A stretch of DNA of 44,820 nucleotides from Sedimenticola sp. (GTDB lineage: Bacteria > Pseudomonadota > Gammaproteobacteria > Chromatiales > Chromatiaceae), in contig JAPHUE010000105.1 in the NCBI GenBank assembly GCA_026196795.1, positions 1 to 44,820 of the forward strand, in the 5' to 3' direction. Positions 14,555 to 40,949 of this stretch are shown one piece after another. The notes under the pieces are model-generated. The model made no database searches, was not told the DNA's origin, and was given only the letters and a program-made list of their open reading frames with translations. A program made the position numbers and the translations under genes. How positions within the stretch are numbered: position 1 is the first letter of the stretch; the number at the start of each line of letters is the position of its first letter.

Positions 14555-15889
14555 CTATTTTCTCTTTTCAAACAGGGCAATGGATTCCACATGGGCCGTA
14601 TGCGGGAACATATCCATCACACCGGCAGAAATCAATTCATAACCGTGCTTATGTACGAGTTCTCCCGCATCACGTGCCAATGTTCCAGGATAGCAGGAGA
14701 CATAGACAATACGTTTTGCCCCAAGTTTAGGCAGATGCTCAAGAACTTCCATTGCCCCTGACCGGGGAGGGTCTAACAAGACTTTTTCAAACTTCTCCCT
14801 CATCCAGGGCTCTTTTTCCAAGGAGTCGTAAAGATTGGCTGTGAAGTAGCGTGTATTGCCAATGCCGTTTCGCTCGGCATTTTCCCGGGCCCGGGCAACA
14901 AGGCCTGATTCACCCTCAACGCCAACGACGCCCGCTGCAGATCTGGCCATCGGCAGGGTAAAATTACCCAATCCACAGAATAGATCCAAAACATGATCGT
15001 CCGATTCAATAGCGAGAAGTTCCAGCGCATGAGCAATCATCAAACGATTCAGATCACTGTTGACCTGGGTGAAATCATTTGGGAGAAAATGCATGGCTAA
15101 ATCATAGGCAGGCAATTCATAAGTCAGATCTGCGGCCTCCCCACTCAATGGTGACACCGTATCAGGTCCGCCCGATTGGGTATAAATTGCTATAGCATGT
15201 GCTTCCCCAAACTTGAGAAGCAGTTGTTCATCATTTTTATCGGGCAGCGATAGCACTCGAAAAATCAGAACACACTGGGTATCACCCATCGCCATCTCAA
15301 TTTGAGGAACCTGCTCTTTGATGCTAAGTGATTCAATCAATGCGGCCAGTGGCTCAATTAAATGCCCCACCTTAGGATGGAGAACCTCGCAACGAGTCAA
15401 GTCAGCCACATAGGGTGACCCCCTCTCTCGAAAACCAACCAGCACTTTACCCTTTTTGATTACAAACTTTGCGCCAAGTCGTGCCTTTCTACGATAGCCA
15501 AATGTATTGCTATTGATAAGAGGTGGCAGAACTGACCCCGGAGTCACTTTACCAATGCGCTGAAAAGCATCCAGCAGGGCCTGCTGTTTTGATTCAACCT
15601 GTGCTTCCGCCGACATATGTTGCAACGAACAGCCACCACAAAGCCCAAAGTGTTCACAGTGCGGATCAACCCGCACAGACGATCGTTCATGAACCTCCAG
15701 CACCTCACCTTCATCAAACTTCTTCTGAACACGGGTGTATTTAAAGCTGACTGTTTCACCTGGCAATGCGCCGTGAATAAAGACTGCTTTACCATCGATA
15801 TGAGCAACACCTCGCCCATCATGGCTCAGTGCATCAATCGTTATAGTGACTGGATCTTGTGGCAGCTTCCGCCGTCTTGAACGTCCCAT
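14555..15889 (-). CDS. rlmD: 23S rRNA (uracil(1939)-C(5))-methyltransferase
   Basis: TRAM domain N-terminus, Fe-S cysteines CEHFGLCGGCSLQH, DLFCGLGNFTLPMA, LLDPPRSGA, YVSCYPGTLARD. Confidence 0.95.
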   Translation of the reverse strand: MGRSRRRKLPQDPVTITIDALSHDGRGVAHIDGKAVFIHGALPGETVSFKYTRVQKKFDEGEVLEVHERSSVRVDPHCEHFGLCGGCSLQHMSAEAQVESKQQALLDAFQRIGKVTPGSVLPPLINSNTFGYRRKARLGAKFVIKKGKVLVGFRERGSPYVADLTRCEVLHPKVGHLIEPLAALIESLSIKEQVPQIEMAMGDTQCVLIFRVLSLPDKNDEQLLLKFGEAHAIAIYTQSGGPDTVSPLSGEAADLTYELPAYDLAMHFLPNDFTQVNSDLNRLMIAHALELLAIESDDHVLDLFCGLGNFTLPMARSAAGVVGVEGESGLVARARENAERNGIGNTRYFTANLYDSLEKEPWMREKFEKVLLDPPRSGAMEVLEHLPKLGAKRIVYVSCYPGTLARDAGELVHKHGYELISAGVMDMFPHTAHVESIALFEKRK

Positions 15890-18697: not shown

Positions 18698-19591
18698 TTA
18701 CTCGGCAGGAAATACACCTGTGGAAAGATACCGGTCACCACGATCACAAATAATCGCGACAATGGTAGCGCTTGATACGGTCTTTGACAGTTGAAGCGCC
18801 GCAGCAACAGCACCGCCCGAAGAGATACCAGCAAAGATACCCTCCTGAGCAGCCAGATCGCGGGTGACCTGCTCAGCCGCTTCTTGTGTCACATCGAGTG
18901 TTAAATCCACCCGTTGCTGCTCAAAAATCTTTGGAATATAGGCTTCAGGCCAGCGTCTGATACCAGGGATACTCGCCCCTTCAGCAGGTTGTACCCCGAC
19001 AATCTGGACGGCGGGGTTTTGTTGTTTAAGGTACTGTGAAACACCCATTATAGTACCCGTAGTCCCCATGGCGCTGACAAAATGGGTAATTTCACCGCCT
19101 GTGTCCTGCCAGATCTCGGGGCCAGTCGATTCAATATGTGCCAACGGATTATCACTATTAGAGAATTGATCCAGGACCCTTCCCTCTCCCCTGCTTGCCA
19201 TTGACTCTGCAAGATCCCTGGCGCCCTCCATCCCCTCTTTCTCTGAAACAAGAATCAGCTTTGCCCCATAGGCTCGCATGGACGCACGGCGTTCAACACT
19301 CAGATTATCCGGCATGATAAGTATCATGCGATAGCCCTTGATGGCAGCCGCCATAGCCAGTGCGATACCGGTATTGCCGCTGGTTGCTTCGATCAATGTA
19401 TCACCGGGTTTAATTGCACCACGCTGTTCGGCATGATCAATCATACTTAACGCTGGCCTGTCTTTAACCGAACCCGCTGGATTATTACCCTCCAGCTTGA
19501 CCAGAATGGTGTTTGTGGTATTCCCTGGAAGTCGCTGTAGACGAACCAGTGGTGTATGACCAACAAATTGCTCAATTGTAGGGTATATCAT
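18698..19591 (-). CDS. cysM: Cysteine synthase B
   Basis: Likely start MIYPTIEQFVGHTPLVRLQRL at 19591; EGNNPAGSVKDRPALSMI (PLP Lys), EATSGNTGIALAMAAAIKGY, GTTGTIMGVSQYLK. Confidence 0.93.
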   Translation of the reverse strand: MIYPTIEQFVGHTPLVRLQRLPGNTTNTILVKLEGNNPAGSVKDRPALSMIDHAEQRGAIKPGDTLIEATSGNTGIALAMAAAIKGYRMILIMPDNLSVERRASMRAYGAKLILVSEKEGMEGARDLAESMASRGEGRVLDQFSNSDNPLAHIESTGPEIWQDTGGEITHFVSAMGTTGTIMGVSQYLKQQNPAVQIVGVQPAEGASIPGIRRWPEAYIPKIFEQQRVDLTLDVTQEAAEQVTRDLAAQEGIFAGISSGGAVAAALQLSKTVSSATIVAIICDRGDRYLSTGVFPAE

Positions 19592-19629
19592 GGGGCCTGC
19601 TTGCAGTAAGATCCTATTAAAAAAGGACA

Positions 19630-19644
19630 TTCTATAGTATAGAA
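19630..19644. promoter_or_regulatory. Symmetric sequence in the cysM/TonB-receptor divergent region
   Basis: Perfect inverted repeat ttctata-g-tatagaa, a possible operator. Confidence 0.3.
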
Positions 19645-19729: not shown

Positions 19730-21736
19730 ATGAAGTATTCACGAACCCTTCCAATTCACTCCAAATGGTTTTGGGGTATTGGATTAGGTGCCTTCAGCGC
19801 CTTCTCCGTTAATGCAATGGATGCACTTTCAACCCCCCTTGATGAAGCGCTATTTTTCAGCGATATTCCGGTGGTTCTCTCGGCAACACGATTGAAACAG
19901 CCCCTAAACGACTCGCCAGCGTCAGTGACTGTTATTGATCGTGCCATGATTGATGCATCCGGCGCCATAGAGCTGGTTGATTTACTCCGGCTGGTACCTG
20001 GTTTTCAGGTGGGTTTCTATACCGGTTCAAAATTTACAGCCTCCTCACATGGCAATGCTGACCGATTTGCCCGAGACATGCAGGTGCTGATAGATGGTCG
20101 CTCAATATACGACCCCGTTTTTGGTGGCGTAACCTGGAGTGACCAACAACTGGATATGGATGACATCCAGCGTATTGAAGTAATCCGAGGCCCAAATGCC
20201 AGTACACACGGGTCAAACTCTTTTTCGGGTGTGATCAATATCATAACCCAACACCCCTCTGAACAGAGTGGTATTCGGGTTAAAACAGTAGTGGGTGATG
20301 GGGGACGGCGTCAGATCTACAACCGGTTTGCGGGAAGTGAGGGCAATCTCGCCTATCGGGTCGCACTTAAATATGATGAAAATGATGGTTATGAGACCCG
20401 GCATGACAGTTCAGATACTCGCTGGCTAGGTATACGCGGTGACTATCAGATCAACAGCCGGGATGCCTTGTTGTTTGAATTAGGCAAGAGCAGCGGAACG
20501 CGTGAAGATGGATTTCCAAATGATGCCCAACAACCCTTCAGACCTATCGAAGATACACACTCCTTCAAACAATTACGCTGGACCCGCAGCCTTTCTCCCG
20601 GCAATGATTTTTATCTTCAGTTCTATCACAACTATCAAAAAGTTGATGACAGTTTTTCTGATGCCACCACTTTTTTTCCACTTGATGTCTCACTCGGCTA
20701 TGGTTTCGACTCCCAGCGATATGACCTGGAGTTTCAACACACCATAGACCTCAATCCGACCCAACGGATGGTTTGGGGACTGGGCGCTAGAAGAGATGAA
20801 GGAAAAGGCATCTGGACATTTAAACGAAGTGACTGGATAACACGAGATCAATATAGGGCATTTGCTAATTTTGAATGGCGACTAAGAGAAAATCTGCTAC
20901 TCAATCTGGGTGGAATGTATGAAAAATATGAAGAAAAAAGCGGCGTCTTTTCACCGAAGGTTGCGGTTAATCTAAAGCTGGATAAGATGAATACCCTTCG
21001 ACTTAGTGCTACGCGTGCCTATCGCATGCCCACTTTTTGGGAAGACTTTTCAGACCAGTCGGTCGTGTTAACAGGCTCTATGACACCGCTGCTTCAGACT
21101 TATAAAACCACAACCAATCTACGACCCGAATATATAGAATCATTTGAGTTAGGCTATCTTGGTAGTTTTCAAGATATAGGACTTACACTCGACATGAAGC
21201 TTTTTCATGAAGAGATCAAAGATATGATTGCCGAGGCAAAAGCACTCAATGCACCTCAACAACCTTTCAGCTATATCAATAGTGGCAGCCTCAACATCAA
21301 CGGCTTTGAAATAGGTCTTCGCTGGGATCCGTCCCCACGTAGTATGCTCCATATCGGATACAGCCTCACAAATGCTTATGGGGATCAAATCAAGAAAACA
21401 CCACCCACACAATCCGATCATTATAGGATCCTCGATAGACGCGTTCCCCCATTAACCGTCAGCCTCCTTGCAAGCCATCAATTTGATTCTGGCATCAAGC
21501 TAAGCTCAGCTTATTACTATATGGATGAAATAAGCTGGGCCGGTGACGGTGACGATGTTCCGATTAACAGACGCTGGGATATTAAACTGACAAAACCCTT
21601 CGAATTTGAAAAGGCAGATGGAGAACTCTCCTTGATCTTACAAAATATTGGTCCTGACAATGATTTTCAGGATTTTCATGAAGAGAATGTCTGGGATGGC
21701 CGGGTTTTCCTGGAAGCACGACTGAACTGGCACTGA
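19730..21736 (+). CDS. TonB-dependent outer membrane receptor
   Basis: Signal peptide; plug domain (DIPVVLSATRLKQPLNDSPASVTVIDR, ELVDLLRLVPGFQVG, IQRIEVIRGPNASTHGSNSFSGVINIIT); beta-barrel ending in LEARLNWH. Confidence 0.93.
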   Translation: MKYSRTLPIHSKWFWGIGLGAFSAFSVNAMDALSTPLDEALFFSDIPVVLSATRLKQPLNDSPASVTVIDRAMIDASGAIELVDLLRLVPGFQVGFYTGSKFTASSHGNADRFARDMQVLIDGRSIYDPVFGGVTWSDQQLDMDDIQRIEVIRGPNASTHGSNSFSGVINIITQHPSEQSGIRVKTVVGDGGRRQIYNRFAGSEGNLAYRVALKYDENDGYETRHDSSDTRWLGIRGDYQINSRDALLFELGKSSGTREDGFPNDAQQPFRPIEDTHSFKQLRWTRSLSPGNDFYLQFYHNYQKVDDSFSDATTFFPLDVSLGYGFDSQRYDLEFQHTIDLNPTQRMVWGLGARRDEGKGIWTFKRSDWITRDQYRAFANFEWRLRENLLLNLGGMYEKYEEKSGVFSPKVAVNLKLDKMNTLRLSATRAYRMPTFWEDFSDQSVVLTGSMTPLLQTYKTTTNLRPEYIESFELGYLGSFQDIGLTLDMKLFHEEIKDMIAEAKALNAPQQPFSYINSGSLNINGFEIGLRWDPSPRSMLHIGYSLTNAYGDQIKKTPPTQSDHYRILDRRVPPLTVSLLASHQFDSGIKLSSAYYYMDEISWAGDGDDVPINRRWDIKLTKPFEFEKADGELSLILQNIGPDNDFQDFHEENVWDGRVFLEARLNWH

Positions 21737-21787
21737 GCAGGGTTAAACAGATTACAGGAATATCCCATTTACACGGAGGTTTTAGTA

Positions 21788-21844
21788 ATGTTTTACACAC
21801 ACTATCTAATGACAGGTATTTTCAGGTGCCCTCCCAAAGGGTAA
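21788..21844 (+). CDS. Putative 18-aa leader ORF ([18 protein letters not shown])
   Basis: ATG at 21788, 8 nt after a consensus GGAGG (21775-21779); overlaps the start of the next gene in a different frame. Confidence 0.4.
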   Translation: MFYTHYLMTGIFRCPPKG

Positions 21845-22821
21845 TTATTGACTATATCCTTTCGTGCCTGTCCTTAAGGACAGGCATAGGCCTGTTTGGA
21901 CAAGTTTTTTTTCTGCTTACGCTACTGATACCCACCACTGGCTTTGCTGCACAGACTACAATTCTTGTTCTCAGCAGTGGAGAGGCCCCCGTTTATAAAG
22001 TTATTGCTGAACAGCTAAAAACACAAATGAACAGCTCATGTGCGAGCCAGGCAGGGCCATGCAGAGACCGCAAGGTCTATGAACTGACATATGATGCGAA
22101 CAATGACAGCTTGGTGATACCTGCAAATACCAAGCTGGTTATTACTCTTGGGTTAAAAGCTGCTGAAGTAGTTCAGAGATTGAATACTGGACTGCCTACT
22201 GTTCATGCGCTCTTGCCTAAAAGCTCCGCCGATCTCTTACTAAGGTCAAGCAATCAAACGGCCATCTACCTTGATCAACCCTCTGACAGGCAGCTAAAAC
22301 TTGCCCGTCTCATCACAAAAACACCCCATATTGGATTACTGCTTGGAAAGAATAGCGCAACGATAGAAGTAGAATTTATTCGTAAAGCCAACGAGCAGTC
22401 GATCCCCGTCTCTTATCGAAATGTTATAGCTGAAGAAAGTGTAGGCCCCTTGCTTAAAGAGCTGCTCGAAGAGAGTAACATTTTATTAGCACTACCGGAT
22501 CCAACAGTTTTTAATCGTCGTACAATATTCAATATTTTACTCTCCAGTTACCACAATAAAGTACCTGTTATTGGCTTTTCATCTGCCTATGTTAAAGCTG
22601 GGGCACTGATCTCGGTCTTCTCTAAACCAGAAGAGATTGCCCTGCATCTGACAGAATTCAGCATAAAGTACCTAAACAGTGACACTACAGTTTTACCTAA
22701 TCCGGAATACCCCAAGTATTTCAGTGTTGAAATTAATCACAGCGTGGCAAGGTCCCTAGGAATATCTCTGCCAGATGAGCAAGAACTCATTCAATTTATG
22801 ACTGATAAGCCAGACAAATGA
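21826..22821 (+). CDS. ABC-type uncharacterised substrate-binding protein (ABC_sub_bind family), orphan
   Basis: Signal-peptide-like region ending TTGFAAQ; periplasmic-binding-type sequence ([65 protein letters not shown]). GTG start, no better in-frame start. Confidence 0.82.
21865..21886 (+). promoter_or_regulatory. Perfect 22-bp palindrome at the start of the substrate-binding protein gene
   Basis: tgcctgtccttaaggacaggca equals its reverse complement; competing acaggc-atag-gcctgt hairpin at 21880-21895; T-run at 21905-21912. Confidence 0.45.
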
Positions 22822-25595
22822 TACGAAGACATCGTCAATCGAGAATAAAGACCCGAGCTCTCCTTCTCGGAATCGTGCCAGCTGCAATTATGGCACTCAC
22901 GCTCACGCTTTACTTGGTAACAGCCCAGCTTGACAACCTCGACCTAGCATTTAAGGAGCGTGGCAATGCCATTGCACAAGAGGTTGCCGCGGCCAGTGTA
23001 TATGGCATCTTCAGTGGTGACAGGGAGTCACTCGCTGCCAACCTAAAACTAATTGCTAAAAGAAAAGACATCATCTCGATTATTGTTAATGATCCAAAAG
23101 GAAAATTGCTAACCAGCGTTGAAAAACAGAGCTTGGACAGTCAGTCTAATGATCATCAATCATCATTTTTTACCTCTTCAGTACTCAGTGGTTACCAGAG
23201 TGTCAACATCGCAGATTACCCCGATCAACTAGAGGCTAATGGTGATGCCTTAACACCCGTTATCATTGGCTCAGTCATTGTAGAGTTAGACCGTACACGA
23301 TTATTGTTACAACAGCACAGTTCCATTCGTAATAGTCTTATCATTAGCGTTATCGGTCTAATAGTCACAGGCTTTATTGCCCTTTTATTAAGCCATAAAA
23401 TAACTCGCCCACTCTCGAAACTGACTCAAGCTGTAATCCGAATGAAGCATGGAGATTTCTCTGTAACAGTTCCGGAATATTCAAAAGGAGAATTACGAAG
23501 TCTGGAGGAAGGTTTCAATGCTATGGCGAAGGAACTGAAGCACTCCCAAGAAATCTTGCAACATCAGGTTGATAGAGCCACAGCTGATCTGACACAGACA
23601 ATGGAGGCTTTGGAAATTCAAAATGTAGAGCTGGACCTTGCTCGAAAACGTGCATTAAAGGCAAGCCAAGCAAAATCAGAGTTTCTTGCCAGCATGAGTC
23701 ATGAAATACGGACACCTATGAATGGCGTCATTGGTTTTTCCAACTTATTAATGAAGACTAAGCTAACAGCGGAGCAACATGAACTTGCCGAAACCATCGG
23801 GAAGTCAGCCACTGGATTGCTGAGTATCATCAATACTATTCTCGATTTTTCTAAACTTGAATATGGAAAACTTGAACCAGAATATGCACCATTAGAAATA
23901 CGCACTTGCTTCGAAGAGCCCATTGCACTTTTAGCGCCAACAGCTCATGACAAACAGGTAGAGTTGGTATTATTGATCTATTCTGATGTGCCTGATCATT
24001 TGATTGGAGATGAAACACGCATCAGGCAGATACTGGTAAACCTGGTGGGTAATGCAATTAAGTTCACACATAAGGGCGAAATTATTGTGCGCGTCATGCT
24101 GGAGGATGAAACAGATGATACTTGTTTCATCCAGTTCTCAGTCACTGATACCGGCATTGGTATCAATGACCATATCCAGAAGGACCTGTTCACATCATTT
24201 CAACAAGGCAATAAAAATACCAGTAAAACCTATGGTGGAACCGGCTTAGGTCTAAGCATTAGCAAGAAACTTGCTGAATCCATGAAAGGGAGAATATCAT
24301 TAGAGAGTATAGAGGGTAAGGGATCTTGTTTTCGTGTAAGTCTGGCACTGCCCAAGTACAATATTAATAAACAAGATGCACATCCTTCCTTACTAGTCTC
24401 AAAAAAGTGCATGATTATAGATCAGCATGTCATTGCACAGCTATCTATTATCCATCGACTCGAAAGTCTCGGCATGATCGTTACTGAAGGAAACTGGCAA
24501 CATCTTGAGGCCAATATTATCCAGGAGCAAGATGTAGTTATAGCGGGTTTTTCTTCGGCTGAAATTAATTCAGGCATTGTGCCAGATAAAATACAATTAC
24601 TTAGACGATTTCACCCAAATAACCTGCTACTTCTGTTGAGTAGTTCAGATTTAACATCAATTCATTCAATCCATGAACTAGCTAATGCACCCTGTATTTC
24701 CAAGCCAACAAGTCAATCTGTTTTAGTACGAACGCTAGAGCATATTTTTCAATACGCCGATTTCCCAGATTCTGAATTTACACCCCTTATTCCTGATAGC
24801 GCACCTTCATTCAAAGGGAAACGTTTTATAATTGCTGATGATAACCCGATTAATCTACAGCTGATTTCGACCATATTGACGTCTTCCGGTGCCACTATTG
24901 TTGAAGCAGAAAATGGCATTGAAGTCCTTCGGGAATATAATAAAGCAAGGCCTGACCTTATAATAATAGACGTTCACATGCCTATTATGGACGGTAAAGA
25001 GGCAACAAGACGCATTCGTGAAATTGAGTCGGGTACGGATCAAACTCCAATCATTGCACTTTCAGCAGATATTATTCCTGAGCACCGCGATGAGCTATTA
25101 TCTTCAGGTGCAGATATCTACCTTACCAAGCCTATTGATGATAATAAATTGTGGGGGGTTATCAGCTCGCTTATCGGCACAGAACCATTAAGCAACACAT
25201 CCATTCAGACAATCACTAAAAATAATGAGACAGACCCGGTAACAGATAGAACATTACCTGTACGCGATATGGCTGAAGTTATGAGAATAACGGGTAATCG
25301 AGAAGAACTAGCCGTTGATATGTTTAATAATTTTATGGTTGATCTTCCAAAGCAGTTGGACTTACTCAATCACCATTTTTCAAACAATGACTGGAACATG
25401 CTTGGTGAGGTCGCCCATCGATTACATGGTGCATGTGCTGTTTGTGGTGTTCCCGCACTCAAATTCGCCATAGAAAAATTAGAACAGCTTGCAGGGCAGC
25501 AGTCGGAAACAGATATTTTAGCGGCATTACAGGACGTCACGGTTTGCTGCAATGATCTCTTTGCGATTGATAATTATACGAGCATTGAATCATAG
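22818..25595 (+). CDS. Hybrid sensor histidine kinase, BarA-like (CHASE8-like sensor, HAMP, HisKA, HATPase, degenerate REC, REC, Hpt)
   Basis: Two TMs, HAMP region, [36 protein letters not shown], receiver [17 protein letters not shown], Hpt [16 protein letters not shown] overlap with the upstream gene. Confidence 0.94.
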
Positions 25596-25636
25596 CCCTA
25601 TGCAACCTTTTGAATGCTTTAACATGAACACAAAGA

Positions 25637-26497
25637 GTGAGTAAATTGAGTGTAGATCAAGAAAAACTTGAACACCTGGTTGAACAGATGCCGACATTTC
25701 CCCAGAGCGCCCAGCGGGTAATGGAGATTTGTGCAGACATAAATTATTCTACACAGGAGCTCGTATCAATAATTGAGCGTGATCCCATAATAACACTCAA
25801 AGTATTGAAGCTGGTTAATTCTGCGTACTTTGGACTTTCGAAGAAAATCACTTCCATAAAACACTCCGTTGTTTATGTTGGCAGCAACACCATTAAGAAT
25901 ATTGCAATTGCCATTACCACAATAGGCATTCTGCCAAAAGTGGCACAAGCTGGCGTCAGCCGAACTCATTTTCTTACCCATAGCCTGACTACGGCTGTTC
26001 TTTCCAGACTTATAGGTCGTTCAAAAGGTATACCAGAAAACGAACTGACGAATTTCTATATCGCTGGGTTGCTACATGACATAGGCGTGATACTAACTGC
26101 TCAATTAGTTAAATCTGAGTATAAACAGGCTATTGATCTCGCTCGGACAGAGACACTCCCTCTACATATGGCAGAACAACAAGTACTTGATTTCAATCAT
26201 GCAGAGGCTAGTGCATTACTGGTTGAAAAGTGGCAATTTCCGGAAACTCTGGTAAGTTGCATCAGAAACCATCACAAAATTGACCTACTTGATAATCCCT
26301 CTGCAATGGAAAATGCGGTGTTTATTGCAAATCAGTTAAGTAAAATGATGGAAGATGATGAGAATCGTATTTCTGCTGTCGAGGCCATTCCAGAGGCTAC
26401 ACAACTATGGCTGGGCAGCCCAATCGAAACGGTTATTGAATCACTTCCTGATTTCTCTGGTGAGATGGAACGTATTAAAGCTTTCATGTCTTTATAA
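25637..26497 (+). CDS. HDOD domain protein
   Basis: MPTFPQSAQRVMEICAD, IIERDPIITLKVLKLVNSAYFGLSKKITSIKHSVVYVG, YIAGLLHDIGVI, IRNHHKID. Confidence 0.92.
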   Translation: MSKLSVDQEKLEHLVEQMPTFPQSAQRVMEICADINYSTQELVSIIERDPIITLKVLKLVNSAYFGLSKKITSIKHSVVYVGSNTIKNIAIAITTIGILPKVAQAGVSRTHFLTHSLTTAVLSRLIGRSKGIPENELTNFYIAGLLHDIGVILTAQLVKSEYKQAIDLARTETLPLHMAEQQVLDFNHAEASALLVEKWQFPETLVSCIRNHHKIDLLDNPSAMENAVFIANQLSKMMEDDENRISAVEAIPEATQLWLGSPIETVIESLPDFSGEMERIKAFMSL

Positions 26498-26511
26498 AAA
26501 GAGGACGTTCA

Positions 26512-27399
26512 ATGCAAATTACATTTTATGGTGTACGTGGATCAATACCTTCTCCTGGTCCTGACACTGTACGTTATGGTGGTAACACGACTTGCATTGA
26601 TGTCGTAACAGACAACGGTGACCGAATTATTTTGGATGGTGGTACAGGTATACGACAGTTAGGTCTCGATATGATGGACCAACTCCCCCTTTCATGCTCT
26701 ATATTTATTACCCATACTCATTGGGATCACATTCAAGGACTGCCTTTCTTTACGCCGCTCTTTGTACCCGGTAATAAAGTTGATTTTTATGGGGCATTCG
26801 ATCCCGTCTACATGAAAGATCTTCGAACTATTCTTGCGCAGCAGATGGAATACTGTTATTTCCCAATTCGTGAAAACGAGTTGAAGGCAACACTGAGTTA
26901 TAATTCACTCCAGGAAGGCGACAAAATAACAGTAGGCTCTGCCACTGTTACCTGTATCTTGCTCAATCACCCCGTATTGAATTTTGGTTATCTCATAGAA
27001 GCCGATGGTAAGCGGTTTTTCTTTACGGGTGATAACGAATCACCCATCAATATTTATAACCCTGAGGATGACGATTACGCAGAATTCCAGGGATTAATAG
27101 AAGAAAGAGAGTCTCATATTATCGATTTCATTCGGGGTGTTGACTGTATTGTCATAGATGCACAGTACACAAAAGAGGAGTACTTCAAAAATAAAGTGGG
27201 CTGGGGACATGGCTACTTTGAAAGCAGCATACGGCTAGCGGAGAAAGCAGAAATCTCCCAAGTTCACATCACTCATCATGATCCAACCAGAACTGACTCT
27301 CAGTTAGACTCTATCTTTAGTCAACTCGCGCAACAAGGTGCCATACCACAAGGCATGCATGTATCGCCAGCTAAAGAGAAATACACCATCTATCTATAA
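26512..27399 (+). CDS. MBL-fold metallohydrolase
   Basis: YGVRGSIPSPGPDTVRYGGNTTCIDV, ITHTHWDHIQGLPFF (HxHxDH), FFTGDNE, ITHHDPTRTDSQLD. Confidence 0.92.
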   Translation: MQITFYGVRGSIPSPGPDTVRYGGNTTCIDVVTDNGDRIILDGGTGIRQLGLDMMDQLPLSCSIFITHTHWDHIQGLPFFTPLFVPGNKVDFYGAFDPVYMKDLRTILAQQMEYCYFPIRENELKATLSYNSLQEGDKITVGSATVTCILLNHPVLNFGYLIEADGKRFFFTGDNESPINIYNPEDDDYAEFQGLIEERESHIIDFIRGVDCIVIDAQYTKEEYFKNKVGWGHGYFESSIRLAEKAEISQVHITHHDPTRTDSQLDSIFSQLAQQGAIPQGMHVSPAKEKYTIYL

Positions 27400-27449: not shown

Positions 27450-27980
27450 TCAATTTCTGAAGATCATGCGCTTTTTAATGAACAGTTCCGCACAGACCAC
27501 TGCCAGGAGAGTAGCAAGATAGACCACATAAACACCGATCATTGTTTGTGGCATGGTATAGCCAAAGAATTGCCATTGAATCTCATCACAGAAACCCGTC
27601 GGTTGAAACAGCCAGGGTATCAACTCATCTAATTTAGCCCAGGATGGATAACTGGCAGCAAAATCACAGGTATTAGAAGCTGAAGGAAATAATTGAATCC
27701 CGGTATGCTTTAATGCTAAAAAAAGCCCCCACCCCGCACTACCTCCCCAGATAAGCATAGCAGTCCATCGAACTAACACCAGGGATGGATAGATCGCAGC
27801 AAATAACCCCGCTAGTAAAATACCAGCGACAGCCGTTCTTTCATAAACACAGAGAACGCAGGGGTCCAGTTTCATCTGATACTGGAAATAGAGTGCAGCC
27901 AATTCAAGAGATAAAGCCGTCATTGCGAGCAGAAGCCAAGGGGAGCGATGTACTGCAATACGTTTTAAATAAGGTAGCAT
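27450..27980 (-). CDS. dsbB: Disulfide bond formation protein B
   Basis: Four TM segments; CVLCVYERTAVAG; second Cys pair in CDFAASYPSWAKLDELIPWLFQPTGFC. Confidence 0.92.
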   Translation of the reverse strand: MLPYLKRIAVHRSPWLLLAMTALSLELAALYFQYQMKLDPCVLCVYERTAVAGILLAGLFAAIYPSLVLVRWTAMLIWGGSAGWGLFLALKHTGIQLFPSASNTCDFAASYPSWAKLDELIPWLFQPTGFCDEIQWQFFGYTMPQTMIGVYVVYLATLLAVVCAELFIKKRMIFRN

Positions 27981-32387: not shown

Positions 32388-32402
32388 TCAAGCTGATTTT
32401 TT
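32381..32402 (+). terminator. Terminator-like hairpin for cobQ inside the convergent gene end
   Basis: cagct-gatca-agctg stem followed by atttttt; encodes the last residues of the GGDEF-EAL gene on the other strand. Confidence 0.45.
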
Positions 32403-34577
32403 AAGATAGGGATTATGTGCATGAAGGCTATCAAAGCTGCGATGTGCGCCAGCATTAAATAGCACCTGAATATCGGCAGCTGATTGTGGAGGACAGAGGT
32501 AATATCCCTGGGCATAATGACAGCCCAATTTTGATAAGACGTCCAGTTGTTTCTGAGTCTCCACGCCTTCTGCAATAACAGACAGATCGAAGTCTCTTGC
32601 CAATTTAACGAGTGAACTGACCAGACGCTTTCCTTTTCCTTCAGGCTCCATCGAATGAACAAACTCTTTATCAATTTTCATGATATCAAAGCAGTAATTT
32701 TGCAGATATGTTAATGAGCTATAGCCTTTCCCAAAATCATCCGCACTTAAATTTACACCAAGCGCCTTAAGACCAGCCATATTTTTCTGGGTTGTCTCCT
32801 GATCTGTAATAAGAAGTGTCTCTGTGACTTCACAATGCAATTTTTCAGGAGCAAACCCGATGCTTTCAAGAATATCTCGAACGACATGAATGATTTTTGA
32901 GTGACTTACTTGACGCGCAGACAGATTAACTGAAACAAAAAAATCACCCTGAGGATCCAACGAAGAATTCCAACTAGCTACTTGTTTACAAGCAGTCAGT
33001 AAAACCCAGCCTCCAATTTGGTGAATGACGTCTGAACTCTCAGCAATCTGAATGAATTCATCCGGTGGTATGTTACCAAACTCAGGATGATTCCATCGGA
33101 GCAATGCTTCAAAACCTTTGATGGTCATTGATTCGATATCAATAATTGGTTGGTAATGAATTGATAATTCATTACGACTTAATACGGAATGCAAGTCATG
33201 TTCAATGCGAGTAGTTTTTTCTACTTTGGCATGCATTTCAGGTTCAAAAATATCTACACGCCCTTTTCCAAGTGCCTTCGCCCTGTACATTGCAATATCA
33301 GCATCACGTAGAATATCTTCAGATTGCTTATACTTTGAGTGACCAAAACAGATACCAATACTGGCATCAATCTGTATCTGATAACCAGCTAAGACAAAAG
33401 GCTCCTTTACGGAGTCCAATATTCTATTTGTAATCAACAAAACCTCTTCCGGATTAGATACATTATCAATTAGAAAGGTAAATTCATCCCCGCCCATTCT
33501 TGCAACAGTATCTGATGGCCTTAGAATTGCCTTGAACCGTAAGGCCATCTCTTTAAGTAATTGATCACCGATAGAGTGTCCATAGCTGTCATTGAGGTTT
33601 TTAAATCGATCAAGATCGACAAAACAGACAGCATATTGACGTTTCTTATCTCTGCTTTGCTTTGCCATTACAACGCTTAGCCGATCATCAAAAAGAAAGC
33701 GATTGGGCAGTGTTGTTAGCGAATCATAAAGCGCACTATGCTCAAGCTTTTCCAGAAGGCTTACCTGCTCTGTTTGTCTGAGGGAGGCATACACACCAAA
33801 ACCGAATAAACCCAATATGCCAATCACCCACACGGCACTATGGGTAATGACCATTGTATTAATAGTTTCTTTCGCCGCTTCAAGATAGTGTGTCATGGGT
33901 ATCGACACACTCACCCCACCCCTCAAGTCACCCTCTTTAAAACCGAGAAACCCATGACACTTTTCACAGCCTTTGGTCATATACATCGGCTTCATGTAAC
34001 GCATGAAGGGCTGACCATCAATCGTTGCAAGCTCGACTATTTCGGTCAGCATGGAGGACTCAAACTGATCAAGCGCATAATGTTCCCATTCATCGGCTTT
34101 GTTTATGGGATTAAGCGTTATTTTTCCCGTTATTTTGCCCTTAACCCCATAGCTATCCTCAAATTCAGAGGTTATTTGCCGAAGCATATAGGCGGGATTC
34201 ATCAAGGTCAGTTTTTCACCACTACCCGTGATGATATCTCTGTCCTTTAGGTGACTAAGGTAAGGATTTGGGGGGGTTCTTTCATTCGGCTTAACATAAA
34301 CACCACCGTGTTTACTGGCCCAGTGACGAAAGGCTTGATCTTTGTTCCAGTTAGCTCTGGCTTCACTGATGGCTAATTGATTTTTTTCTTTCTGGAGATT
34401 GGTAATATTCCAATCTAACGAATAACCAACCAATGCAGTCCAAAAGAGTAGTCCAAGAAGGAGTAATCGTCCTATGGGCTGTTTTACAAATGATGTTATC
34501 TGTTGATCAAGTGATTTCACTGTAGAATCTGATCTGGAGTTACCAAATGACCAGGAAACTGGGCTTCCTGTATCCAT
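32388..34577 (-). CDS. GGDEF-EAL protein with Tll0287/DUF3365-like heme-motif sensor
   Basis: N-terminal TM, KGCEKCHGFLGFKEGDLRGGVSVSIPM (CxxCH), second TM, RMGGDEFTFL, FEALLRWNHPE, DDFGKGYSSLTYLQ. Confidence 0.93.
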   Translation of the reverse strand: MDTGSPVSWSFGNSRSDSTVKSLDQQITSFVKQPIGRLLLLGLLFWTALVGYSLDWNITNLQKEKNQLAISEARANWNKDQAFRHWASKHGGVYVKPNERTPPNPYLSHLKDRDIITGSGEKLTLMNPAYMLRQITSEFEDSYGVKGKITGKITLNPINKADEWEHYALDQFESSMLTEIVELATIDGQPFMRYMKPMYMTKGCEKCHGFLGFKEGDLRGGVSVSIPMTHYLEAAKETINTMVITHSAVWVIGILGLFGFGVYASLRQTEQVSLLEKLEHSALYDSLTTLPNRFLFDDRLSVVMAKQSRDKKRQYAVCFVDLDRFKNLNDSYGHSIGDQLLKEMALRFKAILRPSDTVARMGGDEFTFLIDNVSNPEEVLLITNRILDSVKEPFVLAGYQIQIDASIGICFGHSKYKQSEDILRDADIAMYRAKALGKGRVDIFEPEMHAKVEKTTRIEHDLHSVLSRNELSIHYQPIIDIESMTIKGFEALLRWNHPEFGNIPPDEFIQIAESSDVIHQIGGWVLLTACKQVASWNSSLDPQGDFFVSVNLSARQVSHSKIIHVVRDILESIGFAPEKLHCEVTETLLITDQETTQKNMAGLKALGVNLSADDFGKGYSSLTYLQNYCFDIMKIDKEFVHSMEPEGKGKRLVSSLVKLARDFDLSVIAEGVETQKQLDVLSKLGCHYAQGYYLCPPQSAADIQVLFNAGAHRSFDSLHAHNPYLKKSA

Positions 34578-34721: not shown

Positions 34722-35459
34722 TTATATAGCCATTTCTATTAGTCGCTTCATCTCTCTAACTGCGGAATCAAGCCCTGTAATAACCGCTCTAGAAATAATA
34801 GAATGCCCAATGTTAAGTTCTTGAATCATTGGGATTGCTGCAATGGGTAGGACATTGTGATAATCGAGACCATGACCTGCATTCATTTGCAGACCAAGAT
34901 TAGCCCCAAATTCAACCGCATTTTGTATCTGATGTAAGGCTTTATCACGTGCCAGACTGTTCGCCGAATCAGCATAATGGCCAGTATGAATCTCAACCGA
35001 GGGGACACCAATAGCTTTACTGGCCTCCAACTGTTTCTCATCGGCATCAATAAAAAGAGAGACCTTAATACCAGCCTCATTCAGCTCTAAACAATAATCC
35101 CGCAAATAATCTTTATTTCCGGCCACATCGAGCCCACCTTCAGTGGTCAGCTCTTCACGACGCTCTGGGACTATGCAGCAATCTGTCGGGCCAATTCTTT
35201 TTGCAATGGCTAGCATCTCCTGAGTTGCGGCCATTTCCAGATTCATCCGGGTCTGAAGTGTATCGATCAAGAGATTGACATCCCGGTCTTGTATGTGTCG
35301 GCGATCTTCGCGTAAATGGACTGTGATCAGATCAGCTCCAGCTTGTTCTGCAATTAAGGCCGCTTGAAGTGGCTCTGGATAGCGCGTTCCTCTTTGCTGC
35401 CGCAAAGTAGCGATATGATCAATATTTACACCCAGTAATTTTTTCATGTTCGTCTTCAT
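34722..35459 (-). CDS. pdxJ: Pyridoxine 5'-phosphate synthase
   Basis: [57 protein letters not shown]. Confidence 0.96.
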
Positions 35460-35490
35460 GCTATTAATATTCTAATATTTTCGCAGCGTT

Positions 35491-36210
35491 TCACTGCTTC
35501 TGATAGGCATAACGGAAAAGCTCTCGGCTTTTCAATGGCTTCTCCCCTAGGTAGAAGCCAAGAATGGTTCTGAGCAGTAGACGTGCTTCCCGCAACTGCA
35601 CAGGTAGGGATAAATTGCGTTCGCTCAATGATAGCAGTGTCTTGCCACTGATGGCATATTCATTATCGGCAGTAGTCGGGAGCAGTCCCCGCTCAGGTAT
35701 AAACTGATAGCAACGCTGATCATCAATTGGGTATTGGTCGTCAGCATCCATATTGAGATCAATGCCGTAGCCTAGCTCATCTAATAAATCCAGTTCAAAA
35801 TACCGTAACGCGGCTTCATCTATACCCTGTTCGGATAAGAGTCTAAGTTGGCTGGCATAAAGATGGAAAAGTTGTTCGTGCGGATCATTACGCTGGAGAA
35901 GTCGCATCAGTAGCTCATTTAAATAGAAGCCACAATAAAGCGATTTCCCAGTAAGTAGCTTGTTATGTCCGGCCTGTTCAAACAAAACCAGGTTTTTTAC
36001 CTCGCCCCTGCCACTCCAGCTAATCTGCAACGGCACAAAGGGTTGCAGTAGTGATGATGCAGTCTTACCCCTTCCTTTTACACCTTTTACAATGGCAGGA
36101 AACCGTCCCTGTGATTCAGTTAGGCATTCAACCAGCAGGCTACTGTTGGAATAGTCCCTGCGATGTAGCAGGTAAGCCAGTGATAGGTGATTTGATCCCG
36201 TCTTGTTCAA
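35491..36210 (-). CDS. recO: DNA repair protein RecO
   Basis: AYLLHRRDYSNSSLLVECLTESQGR, GFYLNELLMRLL; follows era and precedes pdxJ. Confidence 0.93.
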   Translation of the reverse strand: MNKTGSNHLSLAYLLHRRDYSNSSLLVECLTESQGRFPAIVKGVKGRGKTASSLLQPFVPLQISWSGRGEVKNLVLFEQAGHNKLLTGKSLYCGFYLNELLMRLLQRNDPHEQLFHLYASQLRLLSEQGIDEAALRYFELDLLDELGYGIDLNMDADDQYPIDDQRCYQFIPERGLLPTTADNEYAISGKTLLSLSERNLSLPVQLREARLLLRTILGFYLGEKPLKSRELFRYAYQKQ

Positions 36211-37106
36211 TCACTATAACCCAACCGTGACAGTGCACTTTCATCACTCGACCAGCTTTTTTTAACCTTCACCCATAACTGTAAGAATACCTTTTTATCG
36301 AAGAACTTTTCCATTTCGATTCTTGCCTGGGTCCCAACGGCTTTCAAAGCTTCGCCTTTTGAGCCAATAATAATATTCTTCTGCCCTTCACGCTCAACCC
36401 AGATCAGGGCATGAATCCGATAGAGATTACCCTCTTGTTCAAACTTCTCTATTTCAACAGTTAATGCGTAAGGTATCTCTTTTGCGTACCGCTGCGTCAG
36501 TTGTTCCCGAACCAATTCAGCTGCAAAAAAACGCTCAGATCGATCCGTAAGCTGATCTTCCGGAAAGTAAGCCGTACCCTCAGGCATGGCCGTTATGACC
36601 TGCTTCTCCAAAGATAAAATATTGTCACCTTTTCTGGCAGAGAGCGGAATCACAGACTGGAAATTAAAGCGATTTGCGGTGACTTCAAGAAATGGGAGGA
36701 GTTCTTCTTTATTTTTGACGGTGTCAACTTTATTGACCAGTAACAATACAGGAATATCAAGACGAGAAATCGTATTCAGGACAGCTTGGTCTTCATCTGT
36801 CCAGCGCAGCGCCTCCACAACAAACAGAATCATATCAACATCAGCAAGTGCTGAACGTGCCGTCCGATTCAGATAGCGATTCATGGCATGGTCGCCCCGT
36901 TTATGCAGGCCCGGCGTGTCTACATAAATGATTTGCCCCTCATCTGTGGTTTTTACACCGAGAATGCTATGTCGAGTTGTTTGTGGCTTGTGTGAGGTAA
37001 TGGCCAGTTTCTGTCCAATCAAACGATTGAGCAAGGTGGATTTCCCTACATTAGGCCGCCCAACAATGGCGCAATAGCCACAGTGGCTGGTTTGTACATC
37101 AGACAT
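36207..37106 (-). CDS. era: GTPase Era
   Basis: IVGRPNVGKSTLLNRLIG, DTPGLH, NKVD; C-terminal KH domain IIIGSKGEALKAVGTQARIEMEKFF. Confidence 0.97.
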   Translation of the reverse strand: MSDVQTSHCGYCAIVGRPNVGKSTLLNRLIGQKLAITSHKPQTTRHSILGVKTTDEGQIIYVDTPGLHKRGDHAMNRYLNRTARSALADVDMILFVVEALRWTDEDQAVLNTISRLDIPVLLLVNKVDTVKNKEELLPFLEVTANRFNFQSVIPLSARKGDNILSLEKQVITAMPEGTAYFPEDQLTDRSERFFAAELVREQLTQRYAKEIPYALTVEIEKFEQEGNLYRIHALIWVEREGQKNIIIGSKGEALKAVGTQARIEMEKFFDKKVFLQLWVKVKKSWSSDESALSRLGYSD

Positions 37107-37776
37107 TTTCGAGTAGCCTCAGAAATTGATTAGCCGCATCTTGCTCAGCTTTACGCCTACTGGTTCCGTGTCCTTCACTCGTTAAATCAAGTGCCTCTAC
37201 CTGACAGCTCACCGTAAAGCATTGGTCATGCTGCTCACCGGTAATACTGTCTATAGTATAGACAGGAAGCGGAAGTTTCTTTGACTGCAGCGTTTCCTGA
37301 AGTCGTGTTTTAGGGTCTTTCTGTTGTGATTTTTTTGAGAGCCCTGAAAGTTTTTTATCAAACAGGTTGAGTATGATCTGACGGGCACTTTCATATCCCC
37401 CGTCAAGATAGATTGCAGCAAACAGTGCCTCGACCGCATCAGCCAATATTGAACTTCGTGAATGACCACCACTCCTGAGTTCACCCGGTCCCAGGTTGAG
37501 GTACTGACCCAACTCCAATTCTCTGGCGATTTGTGCTAACGAGTCACCTTTAACAAGTCCCGCCCTGAGCCGACTCAATTCACCTTCTGCCGCATCAGGA
37601 AAGTGTGCAAAGAGGTAATCTGCAATAACAAACCCAAGAATGGCATCTCCCAAAAATTCGAGACGCTCATTATTAATACTACCAGCACTACGGTGAGTCA
37701 GTGCCGTATCGGCCAATCCCTGATTATTAAATTCATAGCCGATAGAACGGCACAAACGTTCTAGCGGTTCTCTCAA
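37099..37776 (-). CDS. rnc: Ribonuclease III
   Basis: ERLEFLGDAILGFVIADYLF, ILADAVEALFAAIYLDGG, dsRBD GTSRRKAEQDAANQFL. Confidence 0.97.
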   Translation of the reverse strand: MREPLERLCRSIGYEFNNQGLADTALTHRSAGSINNERLEFLGDAILGFVIADYLFAHFPDAAEGELSRLRAGLVKGDSLAQIARELELGQYLNLGPGELRSGGHSRSSILADAVEALFAAIYLDGGYESARQIILNLFDKKLSGLSKKSQQKDPKTRLQETLQSKKLPLPVYTIDSITGEQHDQCFTVSCQVEALDLTSEGHGTSRRKAEQDAANQFLRLLENV

Positions 37777-38150
37777 TTTGAAACCAGCTCCTTATGTTCG
37801 GCAAAAGTAATTAGTAGCTCCATGTTTCCAACCAGCTTTTTCTGTACCGTATAGTTGATGTCGACGGTCATTACACCCGGACTCTTCTTTACCGTAACAT
37901 GTTCACTTTGAAGATCATAAACGCCATTGATATCCAATCTTTTCATAATCATCTTTTTAACATCACGCGTTGAGCGCTTGGTAATCAAAGGTTCCTCTTC
38001 CAATGCCTCTACAACATCCTTAACAGTGAGATTTTCCAGATAGATCGGAATAATACGCAGGCCCAGCAACGCAAAAAAGATCACCAGAGCAATCACTGTC
38101 ATCCAACCGGTGAGTGTCATACCTTTTTGTTTTGAATGTAATCCGTACAT
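37773..38150 (-). CDS. DUF4845 family membrane protein
   Basis: QKGMTLTGWMTVIALVIFFALLGLRIIPIYLE; conserved position between lepB and rnc. Confidence 0.88.
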   Translation of the reverse strand: MYGLHSKQKGMTLTGWMTVIALVIFFALLGLRIIPIYLENLTVKDVVEALEEEPLITKRSTRDVKKMIMKRLDINGVYDLQSEHVTVKKSPGVMTVDINYTVQKKLVGNMELLITFAEHKELVSN

Positions 38151-38188
38151 CTCTCCCCCTGTTTATTATTTCGGTTCGTAACTATTGA

Positions 38189-39007
38189 TCAATCAATCCC
38201 ATTACCCAGACGATCCCAGGTAATTGGGAAATCCGGGCGATTAGAGTCCCAGCTCATCCAGATGGCAAACGCCTTGCCTACCAGCAGGTTTTCAGGCACC
38301 AAACCCCAGCAACGACTGTCATTACTGTTATCTCGATTATCACCCATGGCGAAATAGTGTCCTTCAGGCACGGTGAGCGGCCCTCGCATCAAGACCTGAC
38401 AACCATAACCAAAATCGGGGGCCATGGGGTTGATCAGGATCTCATGTTCTACATCGCCAAGTTGTTCCAGGTTGTTCAGTGCGCCAGTCTCTCTGACGCC
38501 ACTGCCTATCCCCGTATAGACACTGATATGTTGCTGAGACTGTGCCTCGCCATTCACATAAAGCGTCTTGTTACCATAACTGATGACATCACCGGGTATA
38601 CCTACCACTCTTTTAATATAGTCCACCCGGGGGTTTTGAGGATATTTGAATACAAAAACATCGCCTCGTTCAGGCAGATCAATTTCGATCACCTTTTTAT
38701 TCAGTACGGGAAGTCTTATACCGTATGAAAACTTATTCACCAGAATAAAATCACCGACCAGCAGAGTTGGCATCATTGAGCCGGATGGAATTCGAAAGGG
38801 CTCGACAACAAAAGAACGAAGCACCAAAACCGCCAGAATTACGGGAAAAAAAGAACGCGAGTACTCTACTAATAACGGTTCTTTGGCTTTTTCACCATCT
38901 ATTTTTTTGTGCTGCCGCTTGGGAGCAAAAAAAAGTGCATCTATTAGCCACACAAACCCGGTAATAAAGGTAGCGATGACAAGAAAAAGTGGGAAATCAA
39001 AATTCAT
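38189..39007 (-). CDS. lepB: Signal peptidase I
   Basis: FRIPSGSMMPTLLVGDFILVNKFSYGIRLP, RGDVFVFKYP, YIKRVVGIPGD, AMGDNRDNSNDSRCWGLVP. Confidence 0.97.
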   Translation of the reverse strand: MNFDFPLFLVIATFITGFVWLIDALFFAPKRQHKKIDGEKAKEPLLVEYSRSFFPVILAVLVLRSFVVEPFRIPSGSMMPTLLVGDFILVNKFSYGIRLPVLNKKVIEIDLPERGDVFVFKYPQNPRVDYIKRVVGIPGDVISYGNKTLYVNGEAQSQQHISVYTGIGSGVRETGALNNLEQLGDVEHEILINPMAPDFGYGCQVLMRGPLTVPEGHYFAMGDNRDNSNDSRCWGLVPENLLVGKAFAIWMSWDSNRPDFPITWDRLGNGID

Positions 39008-39069
39008 AGGCTATTCCGACCAAATGCAGAGCTACTTTCGGGCAAGCCGTAAGCATTCTTCGCATATTA

Positions 39070-40875
39070 TTAATTATCCTTGCCAACCCGTAAAACGGCG
39101 AGGAAAGCATCTTGAGGGATTTCGACCCGCCCAACTTGCTTCATTCGCTTTTTGCCGGCCTTCTGTTTCTCGAGCAATTTTCGTTTACGGGAAATATCTC
39201 CCCCGTAACACTTTGCAATAACATTTTTTCGAAGTGCCTTTACCGTGGTGCGGGCAATAATTTTACTCCCGATTGCAGCCTGAATCGCCACCTCAAACAT
39301 CTGCCGGGGTATCAGTTCTTTCATCTTGGCCGTGATATCGCGCCCACGCCCTTCACAGTTATCCCTGTGAACAATCAGAGACAATGCATCAACATGCTCA
39401 CCGTTAATCAAGATATCCAGTTTAACCAAATTCGCCACTTGAAAACGCTTGAATTCATATTCAAACGAAGCGTAGCCTCGACTAACTGATTTGAGACGAT
39501 CAAAGAAGTCTAAAACGACCTCATTCATCGGTAACTCATAGGTTACCTGAACCTGCCCAGCCAGATACTGTAGATTTTTCTGGACTCCGCGTTTTTCTAT
39601 ACAAAGCGTAATCACATTACCCAGATGGGCTTGTGGCACTAATATGTGCGCCTCAATAATCGGCTCTCGAATTTCGTCTATCAGATTGGGGGCCGGAAGA
39701 TTAGCGGGATTATCCACCATCTCTATCGAACCATCCGTTTTTGCCACTTCATATATAACGGTTGGGGCAGTCGTGATCAGATCGAGATCATACTCACGCT
39801 CAAGACGCTCCTGCACAATCTCCATATGCAGCATACCGAGAAAGCCGCAACGGAAGCCAAATCCAAGTGCTTGTGAAGTTTCTGGCTCATAATGCAATGC
39901 AGCATCATTCAGTTTTAACTTCTGTAACGCATCACGGAAATTCTCATAATCATCGGAGCTAACCGGATAGAGTCCAGAAAAGACACGTGGACGCATTTCA
40001 GCAAAGCCCGGTAAAGGTTTATCGGCTTTATTATCCGCTAAGGTCAATGTGTCACCTACAGGCGCACCATTGATCTCCTTGATGCCGGCAATAACAAAAC
40101 CGACTTCACCTGGGCCCAAGCTGGTTCTGTTTTCACGCTTGGGGGTAAACACACCCACTTTCTCGACCTGAAATGTCCGGCCTGAAGACATAATCAGCAT
40201 TTTATCTTTAGGCTTGATTCGGCCATTCATCACTCGTATCAGCGAAATGACACCCACATAGGAATCAAACCAGGAATCAATTATAAGTGCCTGCAGTGGC
40301 TTGTTTTCGTCTCCTACAGGTGGAGGAACAAAATCAACCAATTGAGCAAGCAATTCAGGGATACCAACACCTGTCTTGGCACTCACGCGAATAGAATTAT
40401 GTGCATCGAGGCCAATAATCTCTTCAATTTCTGTAATTACCCTGTCCGGCTCAGCGGCAGGCAGGTCGATCTTGTTCAGCACGGGAAGCACTTCAAGTCC
40501 CTGCTCAATTGCGGTGTAGCAGTTTGCTACACTTTGGGCTTCGACCCCCTGCGCAGCATCGACCACGAGTAGCGCACCCTCACAGGCAGCCAATGACCTG
40601 GAGACTTCATAGGAAAAATCTACGTGACCAGGTGTATCAATAAAATTGAGCTGGTAGGTCTCACCATTCGGGGCTGTATAGTTGAGTGTGACACTCTGAG
40701 CCTTAATGGTTATCCCTCGCTCACGTTCAATATCCATTGAATCGAGCACCTGCTCAGCCATTTCACGATCCGTGAGCCCGCCACAGAGATGGATAAAGCG
40801 ATCCGCTATCGTGGATTTGCCATGGTCAATATGGGCAATAATGGAGAAATTACGGATATGCTGAAGATCTGTCAT
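39070..40875 (-). CDS. lepA: Elongation factor 4
   Basis: [58 protein letters not shown]-terminal [32 protein letters not shown] start at 40875 preferred. Confidence 0.97.
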
Positions 40876-40949
40876 GAATTGATTACTGCGCAATGAGCCT
40901 TGAAAAGAGTTACTAAAGAATAAACTTTAAATTTACCTTGTAAGTAACT

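Follow-up and report, generated by a model that had tools for sequence, protein, structure and literature searches.

Why are a TonB-dependent receptor and a periplasmic binding protein encoded directly upstream of a hybrid histidine kinase, and do the two genes behind the kinase belong to the same system? These questions were raised by a five-gene block in a stretch of 44,820 nucleotides from Sedimenticola sp. (contig JAPHUE010000105.1), hereafter called the window. In the ORF list of the window, all five ORFs of the block were located on the plus strand. The first gene (19730..21736) encodes a TonB-dependent outer-membrane receptor of 668 aa with Pfam plug and beta-barrel domains, and the second (21826..22821) encodes a periplasmic binding protein of the PF04392 (ABC_sub_bind) type with a Sec-type signal sequence. 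The third (22818..25595) encodes a BarA/GacS-type hybrid histidine kinase with the Pfam domain order sCache_4-HAMP-HisKA-HATPase-REC-Hpt. It is followed by the genes for a single-domain HDOD protein (25637..26497; Pfam HDOD) and an RNase Z-like MBL-fold hydrolase (26512..27399; Pfam Lactamase_B_2 and HTHWDH). The intergenic gaps from the receptor to the MBL gene were 89, -4, 41, and 14 nt, the negative value being a 4-nt ATGA overlap (22818..22821, plus strand) of the binding-protein stop codon and the kinase start codon. No terminator-like site was found on the plus strand in the gaps of the block. The block is bounded by the divergent cysM (18698..19630, minus strand) and the convergent dsbB (27450..27980). 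These coordinates confirmed the layout described in the first-pass annotation, namely five tightly spaced plus-strand genes between those two neighbors. The ORFs and Pfam matches likewise confirmed that the block lacks an ABC permease and ATPase, and that the kinase has a periplasmic sensor region (sCache_4) and ends in Hpt. The window also encodes a GGDEF-EAL protein (32388-34577) between cobQ and pdxJ, and this place was kept in several species of the genus.

The genus was represented by nine genomes, the named records of which are Sedimenticola. The binding-protein gene was present in one copy in all nine, with the kinase gene directly after it; in G008, the contig stops within the kinase gene and the remainder is found on a separate contig. 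The anticipated co-occurrence of all five families was borne out for the receptor, binding protein, and kinase (the triad), which occur together genus-wide and in many Gammaproteobacteria, whereas the HDOD and MBL genes followed the kinase in four of the nine species (G000, G005, G002, and G008). The MBL gene was absent genome-wide from the other five species, all of which carry the triad, and in none of the other lineages examined did the triad loci contain the HDOD-MBL pair. In a genome of another genus (G023), an HDOD-MBL pair sharing 69-71% identity with the one in the window was located away from the kinase (L065, 5419-7173). Such a pair is perhaps a small mobile unit.

It had been supposed that the HDOD and MBL proteins act as outputs of the kinase, which would make the five genes a single dedicated pathway. 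The common strand, the short gaps in front of both genes (41 and 14 nt), and the retention of the pair in four species of the genus fit this idea. However, five species and the triad loci of the other lineages do without the pair, in G023 it lies apart from the kinase, and the kinase itself ends in Hpt and has a UvrY orthologue. We consider a single five-gene pathway very improbable, and the assignment of HDOD and MBL as kinase outputs found no support. Because the pair was found in only four of the nine genomes and lies elsewhere in G023, the core of the block is a three-gene module. Judged from this comparison of sequences, the block is a conserved receptor-binding protein-kinase module with a lineage-specific HDOD-MBL pair of different age. 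The tight arrangement of the first three genes is beyond chance, since it is kept across families; HDOD-MBL is kept only within part of the genus, and the two genes are later additions that are probably co-transcribed.

The identity of the kinase was examined from several sides. The best NCBIfam model was BarA with 656.7 bits; since this score is below the equivalog cut-off of 890 bits, the protein was classed as a kinase of BarA/GacS type at the BarA/GacS locus and not as an E. coli-type BarA equivalog. In E. coli, barA is located beside rlmD-relA. In the window, cysM and rlmD (14555..15889, minus strand), which are markers of the BarA/GacS locus, lie on one side of the kinase, and pdxJ-recO-era-rnc-lepB-lepA (34722..40893, minus strand), which form the other side of this locus in several relatives, lie farther out on the other side. 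At L176, all of these were found in one stretch, in the order lepA...pdxJ, kinase, binding protein, receptor, cysM, and rlmD. The BarA/GacS locus was found without the receptor and binding-protein genes at L184, L185, L187, and L186 and in E. coli, and in G019 and G010 the kinase gene directly adjoins cysM without them.

In the kinase tree, which was built by a quick method and has long branches and two outgroups, E. coli BarA nested among the triad kinases, apart from ArcB and TorS. Over the kinase core, the closest solved structure was 7z8n (1.2e-95), deposited as 'Histidine kinase', which we take to be GacS. Furthermore, all aligned kinases have kept H302, D718, and H861 of the E. coli BarA phosphorelay, and the corresponding residues of the window kinase are HisKA His 295 (SHEIRTP), receiver Asp 718, and Hpt His 867 (AHRLHG). 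On sequence grounds, the kinase is the BarA/GacS-type kinase of the classical BarA/GacS locus.

The first-pass annotation had remarked that the response regulator partnering the Hpt domain is not in the window. The kinase is not an orphan, however; besides its place at the BarA/GacS locus, the same genome carries a UvrY/GacA orthologue with 50% identity upstream of uvrC. At L045, L108, L123, and L180, which are triads outside the BarA locus, an adjoining UvrY-like regulator was found (26-27% identity to UvrY), and none was seen beside the cysM triads among the mapped loci. This distribution is consistent with kinases at the cysM locus using a UvrY/GacA that is encoded remotely. Of the nine genus genomes, seven yielded CsrA; the window's own, whose assembly is 78% complete, did not. 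The exact enteric-type UvrY box (TGTAAGN6CTTACA) was absent from all nine genus genomes, and an Rfam search over the window gave zero matches.

In an even sample of 143 genomes of the class, E. coli BarA had a kinase match of 1e-130 or better in 14, and the binding-protein gene was adjacent to this kinase in 6 of these 14. At L138, the binding-protein gene comes after the kinase gene, not before it. The order receptor-binding protein-kinase, often beside cysM, recurred in 35 loci from a genome scan, most of them from Gammaproteobacteria; this set was selected by the binding protein and is biased as a sample of BarA. The scan used a narrower alignment, and the first alignment (A1) had contained no sufficiently conserved stretch. 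At L104 (8736-11600), the binding-protein gene is followed by what seems to be a broken kinase gene, with only a 500-aa ORF left.

The receptor gene was found in nearly all triad loci. According to Pfam, the receptor has no STN (N-terminal signaling) domain, the feature by which a FecA-type transducer is recognized. Its nearest NCBIfam model was the TOL_0244 family with 214.5 bits, far under the cut-off of 645, and the closest solved structures were CirA and PhuR.

The binding protein scored 22.6 bits against ABC_sub_bind, slightly under the cut-off of 25.9, and a relative at L112 scored 45.8 bits. The fold of its AlphaFold model (pLDDT 90) matched L-Trp-bound 3lft, 3lkv, and CD0873 (6hnj). 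The start of the gene is uncertain, as it was placed at the GTG at 21826 and the best Shine-Dalgarno sequence with ATG (21775-21790) is in another frame. Within 21775-21830, the strong GGAGG Shine-Dalgarno sequence and the ATG at 21788 open a frame of 18 codons that is out of the binding-protein frame. The ORF of the nearest relative (L030) starts with MFY in frame. The start in the window may have been shifted by a local indel or an assembly error.

With such a fold, the binding protein and the receptor could be a nutrient uptake pair that uses a remote ABC permease and ATPase, the adjacency to barA being a transcriptional convenience. Candidate permeases are at hand, since each genus genome has 5 to 17 matches to BPD_transp_2 (PF02653). 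However, none of 30 BPD_transp_2 loci retrieved from genus genomes had an ABC_sub_bind-like neighbor, and no transporter gene was recognized beside the binding protein in the mapped loci, where part of the neighbors is annotated. Moreover, the partner gene encodes a membrane sensor, several with sCache_4, even with a GGDEF output. A permease search with PF06541 gave nothing; that family is probably not the one that goes with this type of binding protein, and PF02653 was used instead. The earlier claim that the binding protein stands outside a local importer was upheld both in the block and in the mapped related loci, where no permease or ATPase was recognized, and an uptake pair seems unlikely to us.

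A partnership of the binding protein with the sensor is the reading that we prefer. The 4-nt overlap of the binding-protein stop and the partner start was observed at 31 of the 41 loci, two of which are from the same genome. The window's genome encodes one binding protein and one sCache_4 kinase. In a set of 55 genomes, 12 of the 19 that have the binding protein also had sCache_4, versus 0 of the 36 that lack it (Fisher 1e-7, kinship uncorrected). A diguanylate cyclase with an N-terminal sCache_4 takes the place of the kinase as partner in bins of Sideroxydans and Gallionella (3.6e-22 and 3.5e-11). GGDEF(-EAL) proteins preceded by PF04392-like binding proteins were found at L112 (7938-11020), L115 (6980-9651), and L117 (7767-10072). 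Since those of L112 and L115 carry sCache_4, the input unit of binding protein and sensor seems to feed c-di-GMP as well. Taken together, the overlap, the pairing with sCache_4 GGDEF proteins, and the restriction of sCache_4 to binding-protein genomes among the 55 suggest that the binding protein partners the sensor domain of the kinase; this appears to hold irrespective of the output.

A loop of the sensor may mark the partnership. In the window kinase, this loop reads NIADYP around D133 (D133-Y134), and the D[YF] motif was found in 27 of 35 binding-protein-linked kinases versus 1 of 11 others. Three independent contrasts were available on the tree, and motif and binding protein went together in two to three of them (low power); hence, the association is a lead and not a proof. 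The motif is absent from the linked sensors of L045, L048, and L138 and from the GGDEF protein of L115. The predicted structure of the sensor is Cache-like (pLDDT 80), in which the D[YF] loop is long and of low confidence. Spearman coefficients of pairwise distances were 0.74 between the binding protein and the kinase core and 0.80 between the binding protein and the receptor.

In G019, the kinase beside cysM (L071, 6836-9400) has two membrane helices, the entire periplasmic sensor is gone, and the receptor and binding-protein genes are both lost. This joint loss of sensor and binding protein would equally suit a negative regulator, that is, a binding protein that restrains the kinase until a ligand binds or releases it, in the manner of YfiR. 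A periplasmic partner, a Cache sensor, and tight co-translation serve such a role just as well. YfiR-YfiN type systems consist of periplasmic regulators of Cache/CHASE8 sensors. However, the fold of the binding protein is a ligand-binding one, unlike YfiR, and we hold a restraining role to be rather doubtful.

We return to the binding protein as a ligand-presenting partner of the sensor. In the model that we favor with moderate confidence as a whole, the triad would form the input side of the cell's BarA/GacS system. The receptor would carry a compound that is scarce or bulky through the outer membrane, and the binding protein, to judge from its fold, would capture the compound in the periplasm. 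The binding protein would then dock on the Cache-type sensor of BarA/GacS, perhaps through the D[YF] loop. As is familiar from this family, the phosphate would pass from HisKA His 295 to receiver Asp 718, Hpt His 867, and UvrY/GacA, and UvrY/GacA, encoded at uvrC, would control the Csr/Rsm system. By analogy with TorT and TorS, we infer that the binding protein presents its ligand to BarA/GacS. The first-pass annotation had already proposed import by the receptor and presentation by the binding protein; comparative support was gained from the triad, the overlap, the GGDEF pairing, and the joint loss in G019. To our knowledge, E. coli BarA and GacS work without such partners, and thus this kinase type does not in general require the binding protein.

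In Gammaproteobacteria, genes for lifestyle, biofilm, and virulence are under the control of BarA/GacS as a master switch. E. coli BarA is reported to bind protonated acetate, and BarA to fall into pocket types across orders (PMC8639471); partner proteins are not mentioned in the passages concerned. The acetate-pocket residues given there were considered as a guide to the ligand; the triad kinases do not retain them as a complete set, and so no ligand was inferred. The ligand of GacS was called unknown in a 2020 review (PMC7695008), in which the words TonB and cysM do not occur. The literature searched, which covered few subscription papers, held no account of gacS or barA with a TonB receptor or a binding protein.

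The arrangement of the triad at the barA locus suggests how BarA/GacS may receive its signal, and the idea is testable. The binding protein and the receptor of the barA locus offer a handle on this signal, as a soluble protein is easier to purify and to screen for ligands than a membrane kinase. We tentatively raise the further possibility, to which we give rather less than even weight, that the ancestral gammaproteobacterial BarA/GacS was a two-part receptor with a TonB-fed binding protein and that the partners were lost in E. coli and Pseudomonas. If so, the best-studied species have rebuilt or lost the upstream input of the switch, and the loss of the partners would go some way toward explaining why the signal of GacS has remained hidden.

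Finally, the system was compared with known ones. It has the domain order, locus, phosphorelay residues, and UvrY/GacA orthologue at uvrC in common with BarA/UvrY of E. coli and GacS/GacA of Pseudomonas. It differs from them in the binding protein and TonB-dependent receptor encoded directly upstream, and its sensor loop carries the D[YF] motif, which is absent from E. coli BarA. With PF04392 proteins such as TrpX-type 3lft and CD0873 (6hnj), the binding protein shares the fold and a C-terminal conserved block, whereas it has no permease or ATPase, is linked to a sensor, and is only about 17% identical. YfiR-YfiN likewise joins a periplasmic partner to a membrane sensor, and GGDEF outputs are possible in both; the partner in the window, however, is a two-lobed binding protein and not YfiR. 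In TorT-TorS of E. coli, where torT lies beside torS, and in LuxP-LuxQ of Vibrio, a periplasmic binding protein presents the ligand to a hybrid kinase, and as in the window a periplasmic protein of binding-protein fold is encoded with the kinase. The window differs in its sCache_4 BarA-type kinase, its PF04392 binding protein, and the added TonB-dependent receptor. By this analogy, the system would be a BarA/GacS-type kinase with a two-part input, like TorT-TorS or LuxP-LuxQ.
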